Shown here: one piece after another, positions 1-3,877 of the stretch
Numbering within the stretch: the stretch's first letter is position 1
How the letters are laid out: every line of letters begins with the position of its first letter
Source of the DNA: Pseudomonadota bacterium
Lineage (GTDB): Bacteria > Pseudomonadota > Gammaproteobacteria > Burkholderiales > Thiobacillaceae
Assembly (NCBI GenBank): GCA_030653935.1
Contig: JAURYL010000018.1
Span: forward strand, 1 to 64,000
Direction: 5' to 3'
Length of the DNA: 64,000 nt
Notes under the pieces: model-generated
What the model was told of the DNA's origin: nothing
Database searches by the model: none
The model's input: the letters and a program-made list of their open reading frames with translations, nothing else
Program-made: the position numbers and the translations under genes

Positions 1-154
1 GCGCCTTGAGGTCACGCTTAAAGCCGCCGAATTCGCGGGTCTCGCGGGTGAGGTTTCCGGCTTCGTCCTCGATGAGGACGGTGACGACGTGCTTCATCCG
101 ATGCACGTCGATGCCAGCAACGCGTTTGTGCAGCGTTTCCAGTTGCGATTTCAT
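1..154 (-). CDS. IS110-family transposase, N-terminal part only
   Basis: Reading leftward from the ATG at 154, the frame stays open to the window edge (51 residues). It contains the motif GIDVHRMKHVVTVL about 13 residues in. This matches the start of the DEDD (RuvC-like) catalytic domain of IS110-family transposases, where the Asp after GI is the first catalytic acid. These enzymes recombine a circular element into its target through a Holliday-junction-like intermediate. The rest of the gene lies outside the window, so completeness cannot be judged. The long noncoding stretch immediately upstream (155 to about 600) is typical of IS110 elements. Confidence 0.75.
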   Translation of the reverse strand, partial: MKSQLETLHKRVAGIDVHRMKHVVTVLIEDEAGNLTRETREFGGFKRDLKA

Positions 155-480
155 GTGCCTTCTCCCATGTTGACAGGGGGGGTGTGGAGTTGGTGGACAA
201 CCCGATCAGATGTGCCTTGCATCGGAAATCGGCGCATGCCTGTTTACCGTGCGTCCTACGCACGCAGTGCGCGGAACAATCGGGGGTGCGGACTGTTCGG
301 GCCGGGTCCGGTTAGGCGACGGGGTACAACCACCAAACGTTTTTCGACCTCACGTCCGCCAACTCCCTCTTTTTATTTATGGATCATCCCAGCACCGCTT
401 TCATGTTCGGGGGCGAGCCGGGGGATCATGGCTGGTTGGGATGAGGGAGCTGGCAGAGGTGGTGCGCTGTCCACGCCCCC
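155..480 (-). ncRNA. Candidate IS110 bridge-RNA region (noncoding leader)
   Basis: This segment lies directly upstream of the transposase start and has no convincing gene on either strand. IS110 elements of the IS621 type encode a structured bridge RNA between the left end and the transposase. Here I can see a perfect hairpin (GTGCGT at 249-254 with ACGCAC at 258-263) and other GC-rich self-complementary stretches. The assignment rests on position and family knowledge; I could not fold the RNA or locate the element end, so the limits are approximate. Confidence 0.27.
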
Positions 481-490
481 TCATCCCCGG

Positions 491-516
491 CCCTTCTCCC
501 GCCTGCGGGAGAAGGG
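491..516. repeat. Perfect 12-bp hairpin repeat
   Basis: CCCTTCTCCCGC (491-502) is followed by a 2-base loop and its exact complement (505-516). The sequence is typical of short dispersed palindromes in proteobacterial genomes. It may mark the outer boundary of the IS110 element or be an unrelated repeat next to it. Confidence 0.7.
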
Positions 517-619
517 AGTAAAGACTGCGCTGGCCTTAACTTAGCGCAATGGAGGGCTGATCCACATGGCACAAGGTCAGGCCCCGATAGCTGTTCGTTG
601 ATTATCGAAGGGGCTTACT

Positions 620-663
620 TCACTTTTACGATATTTAGCTGAAGAGCTGAATGATAAAAGTGA
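620..663. repeat. AT-rich inverted repeat
   Basis: TCACTTTTA (620-628) and TAAAAGTGA (655-663) are perfect 9-bp complements, and the intervening bases partly extend the stem through AGCT sequences. It lies in a gene-free stretch (about 540-850) between the IS110 remnant and the RES/Xre module. It could be an insertion-element end or a transcription hairpin; nothing decides between these. Confidence 0.5.
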
Positions 664-743
664 ATGCACCTAAATAAATGGGACCAAGCTCAAATATCCA
701 TCGACAACTGCGTGTTCTTTGGCGCTGCTTCCGCCCCCAGATA

Positions 744-772
744 GCCGAAGCCGGCGAGACGCCGGCGCTACA
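744..772. repeat. Half copy of the GTAGCGCCGGC palindromic repeat
   Basis: This stretch contains GCCGGCGAGACGCCGGC and ends GCGCTAC, matching one arm of the two-armed element at 10489-10546. Only one arm is present. It lies just upstream of the antitoxin promoter region. Confidence 0.55.
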
Positions 773-800
773 GGGGTGCTGAGCGCACCGTCACGTCGCC

Positions 801-833
801 GCCAATATTGGCTAGAATGCATGCCATATGGCA
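801..833. promoter_or_regulatory. Twin 12-bp palindromes, candidate antitoxin operator
   Basis: GCCAATATTGGC (801-812) and TGCCATATGGCA (822-833) are both perfect palindromes built from GCCA/TGGC half-sites. Their centres are 21 bp apart, which is two helical turns. They end 17 bp before the antitoxin ATG, where an autoregulatory operator for an Xre/DUF2384 antitoxin would be expected. Binding is inferred. Confidence 0.5.
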
Positions 834-850
834 CTAATTGGAGCATCACC

Positions 851-1285
851 ATGACCACGGCGCTTTCCATTGAGGCGATGTTGGGTGGCCGACAGGGCTT
901 ATTGGCCAGGCCGCGCACCCCCTTGCAGTGGGTCTCACTCATCCGCCAGGGCATCCCGTCGGCGGCGGTGGACTCGCTGACCGAGGTCATGAGCATTACC
1001 CAGGCCGAACTGGCCGCCGCGTTGGCGATACCTGACCGCACTCTGGCCCGCCGCAAGAAGGAAGGCCGGCTCAACAGCGAGGAAACGGCCAAGCTGGTGC
1101 GGCTGGCGCGAGTCATCGAACGGGCCGAAGAGACTTTCGAGGACATCGACGCCGCGCGGGATTGGTTGAAATCCTCGAATACCGCCTTGTCGGGGGCGAC
1201 CCCCTTGTCCTTGCTGGATACCGATATCGGCGCGGAAAGCGTGATGGATACCCTGGGCCGCATCGAGCACGGCGTATTCGCTTGA
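851..1285 (+). CDS. Xre/MbcA/ParS-type antitoxin (DUF2384)
   Basis: 144-residue protein from the ATG at 851, preceded by GGAG at a good distance; an in-frame upstream extension to 719 runs through repeat sequence and is unlikely. The central part (QAELAAALAIPDRTLARRKK) is the helix-turn-helix of the Xre-like antitoxin of RES systems, and the C-terminal half fits the DUF2384 domain (TKLVRLARVIERAEETF.. pattern, then an acidic GxEsVmDtLGRIEhG end). The protein should neutralise the RES toxin encoded 13 bases downstream and repress its own promoter, probably through the palindromes at 801-833. Confidence 0.88.
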   Translation: MTTALSIEAMLGGRQGLLARPRTPLQWVSLIRQGIPSAAVDSLTEVMSITQAELAAALAIPDRTLARRKKEGRLNSEETAKLVRLARVIERAEETFEDIDAARDWLKSSNTALSGATPLSLLDTDIGAESVMDTLGRIEHGVFA

Positions 1286-1298
1286 TGCGCCTCGACTG

Positions 1299-1763
1299 AT
1301 GTTCACCATCTGGCGCCTGGTCACCCACCGATTCGCGGAAACCGCCTTCTCCGGCGAGGGCGCCCGGCTCTATGGCGGGCGCTGGAACCGCAAAGGCATC
1401 CCGCTTGTGTATACCGCCGGCAGCCAGTCCCTGGCGATGCTGGAAATGCTGGTGCAGGACGAGCCGTTGCGGGCGAACTACATGATGATTCCGGCCACCT
1501 TGCCCGACAGCCTGGTCATCGAGCGCATCGACCCTGCCCAACTCCCCGCCGACTGGCGCGATCAGGCCGCGCGGGAACAGTTGCAGGTCCTGGGTACGGA
1601 CTGGGCCAGGCGCCGGTCGAGTGCGGTGCTTGCCGTGCCCAGCACCGTGATCCCGATGGAAACCAATTACCTGCTCAACCCCCTGCACCCCGCGTACCCG
1701 GAAATCGAAATCGGCGTACCGCAGCCCTTCATTACCGACCTGCGTCTGGTGAAACGGCCATGA
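1299..1763 (+). CDS. RES-domain toxin (NAD-degrading family)
   Basis: 154-residue RES-domain protein. Visible family signatures are YGGRWNRKG near residue 26-34 (the conserved Arg), then VYTAGSQSLAMLEMLVQ carrying the conserved Tyr and Glu, and a conserved Ser later in the fold. RES toxins such as MbcT deplete NAD+ and halt growth until the cognate antitoxin binds. The gene directly follows its antitoxin, the usual order for RES/Xre modules. Length is normal and no lesion is seen, so the module is probably functional. Confidence 0.88.
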   Translation: MFTIWRLVTHRFAETAFSGEGARLYGGRWNRKGIPLVYTAGSQSLAMLEMLVQDEPLRANYMMIPATLPDSLVIERIDPAQLPADWRDQAAREQLQVLGTDWARRRSSAVLAVPSTVIPMETNYLLNPLHPAYPEIEIGVPQPFITDLRLVKRP

Positions 1764-1851
1764 ACCAGCAACGCCCGCCCGGAAGTCGAATTCACGGGGT
1801 TAGGCTCGAATGGCACTGAGAGGCTGTGAAAAATTTCCTGCGCCCACCCTA

Positions 1852-1951
1852 CCGTCATTCCCGCGCAGGCGAGAATCCAGTTCGTAGGGCTGACTACCTT
1901 TAAAATCAATTAGATATACAACCTGGATTCCCGCCTGCGCGGGAATGACGG
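1852..1951. repeat. Inverted pair of CCGTCATTCCCGCGCAGGCG repeats
   Basis: A 29-bp unit at 1852-1880 is repeated in inverted orientation at 1923-1951 with one difference, around about 42 bp of AT-rich spacer. It belongs to the same broad class as the element at 2088-2178. It lies in a gene-free stretch (1764-2288) that otherwise holds only dispersed repeats. Confidence 0.75.
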
Positions 1952-2087
1952 TGGATATTCCCGCCGGTTTCAATTAATTCACAACCTCTGAGTTAAGCCC
2001 CGCCCGGGGCGGGAAGGTGGGACCACGGACAGGCTGGTGGGCGCGGCTTGTCTGGGTGGGAATGATCCTGGGAGCGTGGTTGGGGCG

Positions 2088-2178
2088 CATCGAAAAACCC
2101 GTCATTCCCGCGAATGCGGGAATCTAGTGTGTTGATTTCACTGGGTTCCCGCATTCGCGGGAACGACGAATTAGGGGG
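2088..2178. repeat. ~100-bp palindromic MITE-like element, copy A (right end lost)
   Basis: Two inverted arms (GTCATTCCCGCGAATGCGGG and CCCGCATTCGCGGGAACGAC) flank a TGTTGATTTCACTGGG core. It is nearly identical to the reverse complement of copy D at 63840-63940 up to the GAATTAGGGGG segment, after which this copy diverges. There is no coding capacity. Confidence 0.8.
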
Positions 2179-2239
2179 GCGCGATGTGCTCGTTGGCCGC
2201 TTCTTTCCTGCATTTGCCTGAATCCGTGTGGCGGCGGCT

Positions 2240-2262
2240 ATCGCGGGCAAGCCCGCTCCTAC
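2240..2262. repeat. Single arm of the GTAGGAGCGGGCTTGCCCGCGAT repeat
   Basis: A 23-bp REP-like unit identical to one arm of the palindrome at 20131-20188. It carries an internal GCGGGC/GCCCGC hairpin. Confidence 0.65.
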
Positions 2263-2288
2263 GGTTTGGTCAACCGTCGGACGCTGGA

Positions 2289-2666
2289 TTACGGCGTGTC
2301 GCGGGTTCGCCGGCGGAGTTCGTGATGGACCGCCAGCAACAACATGACGGGCAGCAGGAATCCCACCAGGAAGGGGGTCAGCGCGACCAGGCGTTCGAAC
2401 CAGCCCGTTTCTACCGTGACCGCGTTCCAGATCGTCCAGGTCAGCGGCAGGAGGGTGAATAACAGCGTCGGCAGCAGAAACCAGAGGCTGCTTTTGCCGC
2501 CGGCTTTCGCCAGTCGCATGGAGAAAAAGGAAATCGTGGCGACCACCAGCGCGGATACGGCGCCCCAGGCCATGCCGAAGAAGCCGGCGATCATGCCGGC
2601 GATCTGAAACAAGAGCAGGAGGGCAATCGTCAGGGCGACGAGTTGTTTGAGTGTTTTATCGGTCAT
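2289..2666 (-). CDS. Small four-helix membrane protein, unknown function
   Basis: 125-residue, strongly hydrophobic protein with four likely membrane spans at about residues 7-28, 32-50, 62-82 and 93-112, and a basic C-terminal tail (HHELRRRTRDTP). No catalytic motif is recognised and I cannot name a family. It stands alone on the minus strand, flanked by repeat-rich noncoding DNA on both sides. The reading frame is intact and the composition typical of a genuine inner-membrane protein. Confidence 0.65.
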   Translation of the reverse strand: MTDKTLKQLVALTIALLLLFQIAGMIAGFFGMAWGAVSALVVATISFFSMRLAKAGGKSSLWFLLPTLLFTLLPLTWTIWNAVTVETGWFERLVALTPFLVGFLLPVMLLLAVHHELRRRTRDTP

Positions 2667-2757
2667 CTGAAACTCCGGATTTCAGGGAAGGGGATGGTCG
2701 CGGCGAAAAGGCCACCAGCTTGCCAGGGCGGCGCCGATTACCAGGCGTGTTATTTAA

Positions 2758-2786
2758 GTAGGGGCGGGTTTGAAGCCCGCCCCTAC
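2758..2786. repeat. Perfect 11-bp hairpin (GTAGGGGCGGG)
   Basis: GTAGGGGCGGG (2758-2768) pairs with CCCGCCCCTAC (2776-2786) around a 7-base loop. It starts with the GTAG signature shared by several other palindromes in the window. It lies in the gap between two minus-strand genes (2667-2881). Confidence 0.7.
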
Positions 2787-2881
2787 GGCTACGCGTTACC
2801 TACTACGATTCACATAGAGCCATTAATATCAACGGGTTGCGGGTTTTTGTCCTACGAATTGTTTTCGGATACGGTATTCCC

Positions 2882-3412
2882 TCAACGTACTTCCAGCCGG
2901 AAATCCGCACCCAGTGCCGCGCGCATCTCCTCAAGCGTGAGATGCCGCATGAAGGGATAGACGCCGGGCATGTTCTGGTTGCTCATACAGGTGAGCAGAC
3001 GGGCTCCGGGCTGTGTTTCGGAATGCAGCCAGAACAGGGTCTTGTAATAGATGTGGCTGGGTCGATCATCGTCGAACAGGCCGACCCGCATCGGCGCGAA
3101 AACGGGGGGTGCCGCTACCGTATCGGCGATGCCGCCGATGCTGTGGCCGATCCGGGTTATCCGGAACACATCCGGCCGCACGGTCTGCGGCGAGTCGCTG
3201 ACGGTGTCGATCTCGAAAACACAGAACGGGTCGTATTCCCTCACACCGTTGCGGGCGACGGGATGGCCGTATTGCAGGCGAACGCTGGCGGATTCCGCTG
3301 GAATGGCCAGCGCCGCGAGTAGAACCAGACGGCCACGCTCGGGTGGAGCGGAAGCGCCTGGCTGGCCAGCACAGGCGGCGAGGAAGAGCAGGGCGAGGAG
3401 GGCGAGTCGCAT
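2882..3412 (-). CDS. Putative lipoprotein, unknown function
   Basis: 176 residues from the ATG at 3412, which has GGGAG six bases upstream; longer in-frame extensions run through hslR on the other strand and are rejected. The N-terminus is a lipoprotein signal (MRLALLALLFLAACAG, with lipobox Cys at residue 14). The mature part contains the pattern DPFCVFEIDTVSD and resembles small outer-membrane-associated proteins of unknown role. It is divergent from hslR, with 51 bp between the starts. Confidence 0.7.
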   Translation of the reverse strand: MRLALLALLFLAACAGQPGASAPPERGRLVLLAALAIPAESASVRLQYGHPVARNGVREYDPFCVFEIDTVSDSPQTVRPDVFRITRIGHSIGGIADTVAAPPVFAPMRVGLFDDDRPSHIYYKTLFWLHSETQPGARLLTCMSNQNMPGVYPFMRHLTLEEMRAALGADFRLEVR

Positions 3413-3463
3413 GTGTATCTCCCATGCGGTGGTGGGACGGGATTTACTGGGTATCATCGTCCC

Positions 3464-3877
3464 ATGTCGAGAAAAACCCCAACCGAAGTTTCGGACCTCC
3501 CGCGCGTGCGCCTGGACAAGTGGCTCTGGGCGGCGCGTTTCTACAAGACGCGCGCCCTCGCCCATGAGGCGATAGAGAACGGTCGCGCGCGCCTGGAGGG
3601 CGAGCGGGTGAAGCCGGGCCGGGAAGTCCGGGTGGGCGATGTGCTTACCCTGCGGCTCAATGATCTGGAATGGGTGGTGACGGTACGGCAGTTGTCGGAA
3701 CGGCGTGGCCCGGCCAGCGAGGCGCGGCTGCTCTATGCCGAGAGCGAGGACAGTCAGGCTGCCCGCCTGGCCGCCATCGAACAGCGGCGCTTGATGGTGG
3801 AGCCCGGTGGCGACATTCGTGGTCGTCCGAGCAAGAAGAACATGCGACTGATCCACCGGTTTACCGATTCAAACTGA
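3464..3877 (+). CDS. hslR: Ribosome-associated heat-shock protein Hsp15
   Basis: 137 residues with an N-terminal S4 RNA-binding domain (VRLDKWLWAARFYKTRALAH, about residues 15-34) and a basic C-terminal tail (GRPSKKNMRLIHRF). This matches Hsp15, which binds free 50S subunits carrying a stalled nascent chain and helps recycle them during heat shock. The ATG at 3464 gives the normal family length (E. coli 133). The FAD oxidoreductase gene begins 19 bases downstream, so the two may be co-transcribed. Confidence 0.88.
   Translation: MSRKTPTEVSDLPRVRLDKWLWAARFYKTRALAHEAIENGRARLEGERVKPGREVRVGDVLTLRLNDLEWVVTVRQLSERRGPASEARLLYAESEDSQAARLAAIEQRRLMVEPGGDIRGRPSKKNMRLIHRFTDSN

Follow-up and report, generated by a model that had tools for sequence, protein, structure and literature searches.

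The window, a stretch of 64,000 nucleotides that begins at base 1 of contig C13, opens on the minus strand with the start of a transposase gene that is preceded by a stretch without genes and with hairpins. This arrangement raises the question of whether the leader encodes a bridge RNA and, if so, whether the DNA sites that it would specify can be read from its loops, as the initial annotation had proposed. Combining comparisons of copies and relatives with covariation analyses, we conclude with high confidence that an IS110-family element of ~1.6 kb has its left part at window 435-1(-) and that its leader encodes, on the transposase strand, a bridge RNA that would guide insertion at the left half-site.

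The element, its ends and its copies

The minus strand at 1-154 holds the first 51 codons of an IS110-family transposase of 411 aa, the frame being open at the contig start and the remainder lying beyond it; because the window begins at the first base of the contig, nothing to its left can be read. By itself, the 51-aa fragment matched no Pfam model and is too short for a domain test. A whole element, referred to here as copy A, is located at C24:45501-47099 (locus L016), measures 1599 bp with one core and is 96% identical to the window element over the 440 bases common to both. Its transposase is an unbroken frame of 411 aa (L016:2084-3319(-)) with the domains DEDD_Tnp_IS110 (PF01548, 5.4e-27) and Transposase_20 (PF02371, 2.3e-22), which bears out the identification of a transposase N-terminus at 154-1; it scores 271.6 bits against NCBIfam NF033542 (cut-off 140) and is weakly similar to IS621 (1.9e-9) and ISCro4 (1.2e-9). 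The noncoding parts of copy A comprise 281 nt upstream (corresponding to window 435-155) and 82 nt downstream of the transposase. Because the longer part lies upstream, the layout is that of IS110 and not that of the IS1111 group, in which the longer noncoding region lies downstream, and the initial annotation was correct in favoring the former type. No subterminal inverted repeats were noticed by eye at the two ends of copy A.

Aligning copies and relatives whose flanks differ places the left end (LE) of the window copy at 435, and in this way delimits a noncoding leader of 281 nt (155-435, minus strand), followed by the crossover core AA at 436-437 and by the left target half-site, CATCCC before AA, at 438-443. 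By the same kind of comparison, with unrelated flanks, the right end of the element reads ...CACGGTAA. The core, common to left target and right end, is supported by two insertions that are reciprocal to uninterrupted attC copies: the L021 element is inserted in GATCTAA|CCTTATTC, a stretch that L044 holds uninterrupted, and the L044 element is located at TAA|CGAATAAG, where L021 holds the stretch GCCTAACGAATAAG, on the other strand, uninterrupted. In this comparison the right end in L044 is taken to belong with L022, the two being contigs of one MAG. Given that TAA is common to left target and right end and that the sequence after the final AA of the right end is free, we infer from these junctions that exchange takes place within TAA.

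With the left end at 435, window 438-480, which had been counted as part of the leader, lies outside the element. It is part of a dispersed repeat (matches at 434-560) and the window copy is inserted at the edge of this repeat (438-560), which has copies 81-83% identical on C54, C49, C94 and C33 and shorter pieces on nine further contigs. Further into the window are a toxin-antitoxin pair at 851-1763 (+), consisting of an Xre/MbcA/ParS antitoxin (4.4e-17) and a RES-domain protein (4.5e-29), and inverted repeats of the 'gtcattcccgc' kind at 1845-1985 and 2100-2165; the below-threshold Rfam microRNA/sRNA matches of these repeats are apparently spurious.

Another copy, copy B, is cut off by the end of contig C24 (139 bases, 99%); in the simplest reading it would continue into contig C13. 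At L016 2002-4134, copies A and B point in the same direction and flank one integron cassette. Their outer flanks, a GGDEF gene in which the right end of copy A sits and, if copy B continues into C13, the dispersed repeat, give no single simple site, and the arrangement may reflect a composite move, recombination between the copies or misassembly. When the empty site of copy A was sought across the genus (23 genomes, the own one among them), the best other match reached 92 bits compared to 879 bits for the self-match, and no orthologue was among the matches listed.

These observations bear on whether the window copy might have no present function, as a dead remnant or the product of an assembly join. 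The copy is cut by the contig start, no one simple site is made up by the sequences outside copies A and B, and leaders with guides behind which no transposase was found occur elsewhere (L085, L087, L097, L108 and L116). Against this, copy A has an intact transposase frame, is 96% identical over the shared 440 bases and has target and donor guides identical to those of the window copy. We consider it rather unlikely, at perhaps one chance in four, that the window copy is such a remnant. Separately, L090 is an internal-deletion derivative in which both ends are kept.

Relatives for the comparisons below were collected from genome contigs (10 loci) and plasmids. They also came from a class-level search, in which two of 369 genomes had a match at 1e-100, and from an order-level search, in which five of 399 had a match at 1e-80, the own genome being included in both counts. 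Among viral contigs, three stretches fitted a pattern in the transposase search and none was confirmed; a DNA search of plasmids and phages with the leader gave no match.

The leader as a structured RNA

Window 155-480(-) folds with -126.9 kcal/mol (z -2.65), a value equalled or bettered by two of 100 shuffled sequences. No Rfam bridge-RNA family matched window 1-3000 or six of the loci. In one of the relatives, L049, a tmRNA gene lies near the element (3378-3740 (-), Rfam 217.8 bits). We aligned ten leaders (mean column identity 58%), picked a structure from the folds and the alignment, and built a covariance model, R1, from the window leader and its nine relatives. R1 covers a putative bridge-RNA core of 109 positions at 243-350 (minus strand), which it scores at 109.3 bits, a value that is high by construction as the window leader is one of the building sequences. 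At 1e-6, R1 detects the leader in 11 of the 398 phylum-level genomes searched and in 10 of the 399 searched at the order level, counting the own genome in both.

Covariation gives firmer evidence for the structure than the folding energy does. In the unfitted alignment of ten leaders, 96.6% of the pair cells are paired (reached by none of 500 shuffles) and three of 12 pairs are changed on both sides (reached by 6/500); the number of pair types is not above that of the shuffles (419/500). Run on 40 sources, R1 gave 39 matches, with L025 remaining without one. In the alignment of these matches, which is fitted to R1 and so biased towards the model, 93.9% of pair cells are paired and eight of 12 pairs are changed on both sides, neither value being reached in 500 shuffles, and slid versions of the structure are paired in at most 47.7%. 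In helix P1 (GGUC/GACC), 98.1% of cells are paired and three of the four pairs have changed on both sides. Two U-G pairs are common (31/39 and 25/37 cells) and would be C-A mismatches in the antisense RNA; therefore, the sense strand is favored.

An additional helix, P4, would close the donor loop by pairing the stretch after the target loop (5' strand, 290-304) with the stretch beyond the donor guide (3' strand, 195-210), at -8.3 to -23.9 kcal/mol in the first ten leaders. Across 23 leaders, own strands pair with a mean of -14.9 kcal/mol compared to -11.1 kcal/mol for swapped strands; in ten of the 23 at most one swapped strand is as good, and in three (L108, L093 and L091) swapped strands pair on average more strongly than the leader's own. 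The folds also suggest an outer stem, with its 5' strand at 353-369 and its 3' strand at 198-186 (minus strand). Among eight more distant plasmid elements, R1 finds full-length matches in only two (E up to 1) and a partial match in L141; there is no match for L135-L138 and L142.

Guides for the left target and the donor

The 3' strand of the target loop reads NNN-CUAA and contains the putative left target guide (LTG), GTCGCCTAA, at 312-320 (minus strand), which is the same in the window copy and copy A. The guide was assigned by its covariation with the left target. Comparing the equality of guide and left flank with that obtained when guides were shuffled among groups, we found 3.03 of five positions equal compared to 2.16 in shuffles (24 element groups, 50 sites; p 5e-5). 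Counting away from the core, equality is 0.94 compared to 0.80 in shuffles at position -1 (p 0.004), 0.90 compared to 0.57 at -2 (5e-5) and 0.51 compared to 0.29 at -3 (0.006); over the same groups and sites position -4 is not significant (0.27), -5 is borderline (0.36 compared to 0.24; 0.05) and -6 to -8 carry no signal. The 50 flanks also favor C at -6 (29/50) and T at -7 (25/50) before AA, neither of which is carried by the guide.

The relatives share ancestry, and the shuffles correct for this kinship only partly; after similar RNAs were collapsed to 22, 17, 13 and 10 groups, p was 5e-5 to 1.5e-4. In a scan of RNA columns without anchoring, the expected column came first only for -2 and -3, and other columns did so for -1, -4 and -5. 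Omitted from the 24-group test were L115 (degenerate), L088 and L091 (LE not found), L028 (leader cut before the guide) and L053 (leader lost); L025 was included in it and dropped from the collapsed-group test. In L020 (at 100-145) and L112, the element sits directly behind the right end (TTTCACGGTAA) of what is apparently a different element of this family, that right end being their left flank, and p is the same without both. Flank and guide strings for the guide tests were transcribed by hand.

Individual elements illustrate how guide and target change together. The RNAs of L049 and L108 are 91% alike outside the guide and appear to have been reprogrammed naturally: the guides read AATCT and AACCT, respectively, and the left targets CATCT and ATCCT, with CGCCT as the target of L111, which has the same guide as L108. 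Elements outside the training set follow suit by eye, the R1-aligned guide being equal to the left flank over 8 nt in Paenibacillus L139 (TCCGTTAG) and over 7 nt in Caballeronia L140 (TTGAGAG). With Alicyclobacillus L136 they make up three more distant elements, 35-42% identical in the transposase, that by eye contain stretches matching 7-8 bases of their left junctions.

A preference of the protein itself for CTAA, with the leader merely regulating the transposase and the match arising by chance or shared ancestry, would account for the T in 46 and the C in 37 of the 50 left targets at the two positions before AA, and we regard it as very improbable, as a constant preference would not survive the guide shuffles and the exceptions to CTAA agree with the guide (ACGTAA in L081, TATTAA in L082, CTTAA at four of the seven G007 sites, and the L139 and L140 flanks).

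For the window element, the left half-site as read from the guide is GCCTAA, which in close relatives forms the rim of integron attC sites. The expectation that the loops could be matched to the flanking DNA holds for the left target guide and the left donor guide; CATCCCAA, the left flank of the window copy itself, agrees imperfectly with that copy's guide, and matching to the guide CGCCT is partial in the window copy (flank CATCCC) as well as in copy A (flank GGCCCT).

The putative left donor guide (LDG), CACGGTAA, is located at 244-251 (minus strand), is the same in the window copy and copy A and equals the right end of copy A. It corresponds to the eight bases that precede the final base of R1, which match the right end and read CACGGTAA, CACGCTAA, CACGTTAA or CACATTAA depending on the element. 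In all 13 elements compared, its variable dinucleotide agrees with the one in the right end (reached in 6 of 200000 shuffles); mismatches elsewhere in the eight bases occur in L024, L023 and G007. A candidate right donor guide, GATTGTT at 275-281 (minus strand), was picked by eye, and a bulged pairing of it with AACCAGTC of LE would be possible; a scan of RNA columns gave no clear signal for a right donor guide.

The two bases that follow the LTG (310-311, minus strand) equal the first two bases of LE and may function as handshake bases. In 27 of 28 rows, the base that follows CUAAC in the RNA is identical to the second base of LE (10.5 expected; 0 of 100000 shuffles), an agreement that we treat as a lead only, because both bases lie in the element and are inherited together. 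These bases resemble the handshake guides of IS621 (PMC11208158), but on the other strand.

To the right of the core there is almost no conservation. Across 21 right flanks, information is at most 0.12 bit per position at +1 to +8 and no right target guide was seen there; in the six right flanks of G579, only +4 looks conserved (C in five of six). A register scan for a right guide, comprising 200 tests, gave a best p of 0.0025 at an implausible place and a p of 0.01 for complementarity with the target loop's 5' strand, and with 200 tests neither value is significant; in the same gapped windows, with 11 groups, the left-target control failed. The left guide anchored at AAC gave a p of 0.002 in a nearly equal set of 10 groups.

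Because the helices covary, the LTG covaries with the left flank and the LDG agrees with the right end, the leader is very likely a bridge RNA, as initially proposed. That it would instead have the usual IS621 layout, with the target guide on the 5' strand of a loop that we have misfolded and the right guide 3' of it, is in our estimate an unlikely alternative, though a less remote one than protein preference. In IS621 and ISEc21, the segment that matches the bottom strand is 5' (PMC11208160, PMC11187229), and a GGAC/GTCC pairing just 3' of the LTG is possible by eye in five A-like leaders (window, copy A, L020, L021 and L022). This alternative hairpin is absent by eye in L046, L047, L048 and L049, and the LTG is placed on the 3' strand by P1, the helix with 98.1% pairing and changes on both sides described above. 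Thus, we favor a fold in which the left guides would act from the 3' strands of the loops and the right guides would lie on the 5' strands.

Architecture, integron sites and implications

In total, the leader is very probably a genuine bridge RNA and belongs to a genuine element of the IS110 group; its left half-site can be read, its guides are unusually placed and almost no requirement on the right-hand target is visible. We infer that the leader is transcribed and that the resulting RNA associates with the recombinase and serves as a guide. In this model, (i) the DEDD recombinase and the leader RNA would excise the element as a circle joining right end, AA and left end, (ii) the element would insert at a left half-site ending in CTAA, in which the preceding bases are set by the guide, and (iii) insertion would proceed by exchange at the AA core.

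Contrary to the initial suggestion, the element does not belong to the IS621 group: with 411 aa, DEDD and Transposase_20 domains and a longer upstream noncoding region, the element resembles the IS110 subgroup with long transposases (395-455 aa), which includes IS110 itself (PMC11187229), and its guides are placed differently from those of IS621. Like the IS621 bridge RNA (PMC11208160, PMC11208158), the RNA is encoded upstream, its target loop is variable and its donor loop more constant, and its guides are identical with target and donor and include the core. The core is CT in IS621 and AA in the window element (PMC11208160, PMC11208158). In IS621, the left guides are on the 5' strands of the loops, the 5' side of each of which seems to pair with the bottom strand, whereas those of the window element are on the 3' strands (PMC11208160); LTG and LDG lie 3' of the loop hairpins, and the guide order is not of the IS621 type. 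Two further differences from IS621 are that the donor guide lies in a multiloop closed by P4 and that there is almost no right-target signal. The match to the bottom strand is 5' in ISEc21 and 3' in the tested IS1111 elements (PMC11187229). As it is 3' in both loops here, the RNA appears to be placed as in IS110 but ordered as in IS1111. With the IS1111 seekRNAs of ISKpn4, ISPst6 and ISPa25 it shares attC targeting and a 3' segment complementary to the bottom strand; those RNAs differ in being encoded downstream of the transposase, in the presence of sTIR and in transposases of 330-350 aa (PMC11187229).

The bridge-RNA experiments in the work consulted concern the short IS621, ISEc21 (358 aa) and IS1111 elements (PMC11208160, PMC11187229), and the sections consulted contained no experiment on a bridge RNA of the long-transposase subgroup. 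A predicted layout for this subgroup may be given in Extended Data Fig. 10 of PMC11208160, and elements in it may share the guide order described here.

Judged by eye, several insertions lie in integron sites. The right end of copy B sits within a gene cassette's attC, and the left end of copy A adjoins the start GTTAGGGC of that cassette; an attC likewise surrounds the L021 element, beyond which another attC-like site follows, and the L044 right end lies in an attC. The guide CGCCUAA of copy A, the window copy and L022 matches the usual attC rim. These sites were picked by eye from core motifs, and their folds are not uniformly better than those of shuffled sequences (z -1.39, -4.74 and -1.08). 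We dropped the idea that the whole family targets attC: attC was seen, by eye, only in the branch of copy A, L021 and L022, and none was noticed by eye beside the G579, G977 and G007 sites. Some ends also lie outside attC, namely the right end of copy A in the GGDEF gene and the left end of the window copy in the dispersed repeat. In L053, a G579 copy, a stretch with an attC-like GTTAGGGC stands in place of the lost leader. An integron integrase above the curated cut-off is present in five of the ten genomes tested; in the window's own genome, the best match reaches 89 bits compared to a cut-off of 265. Among IS1111 elements, ISKpn4, ISPst6 and ISPa25 target attC (PMC11187229). Among the papers listed in literature searches on IS110 or IS1111 elements with attC or gene cassettes, no IS110-group attC case was apparent.

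Based on these comparisons, we tentatively propose, while judging it somewhat more probable that the full scheme does not hold, that the long-transposase IS110 subgroup may represent a third bridge-RNA architecture. This architecture would combine an IS110-like upstream RNA with a guide order and a multiloop donor domain that are both IS1111-like, would choose its target mainly by the left half-site, and would have a left-guide strand that spells the finished junction of left target, core and first two LE bases and acts as a bottom-strand handshake; one branch, separately from the IS1111 elements that target attC, would have directed this guide at attC sites.

As guides for recombination that can be programmed, bridge RNAs form a new class. 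The present set adds a covariance model and left guides that can be read for elements whose transposases are longer, and similar cases extend as far as Bacillota. If target choice needs little beyond the left half-site, the family would show which bases matter and would be predicted to target loosely. Insertion into attC, in turn, would provide a second route for guide-RNA elements into integron cassette arrays.
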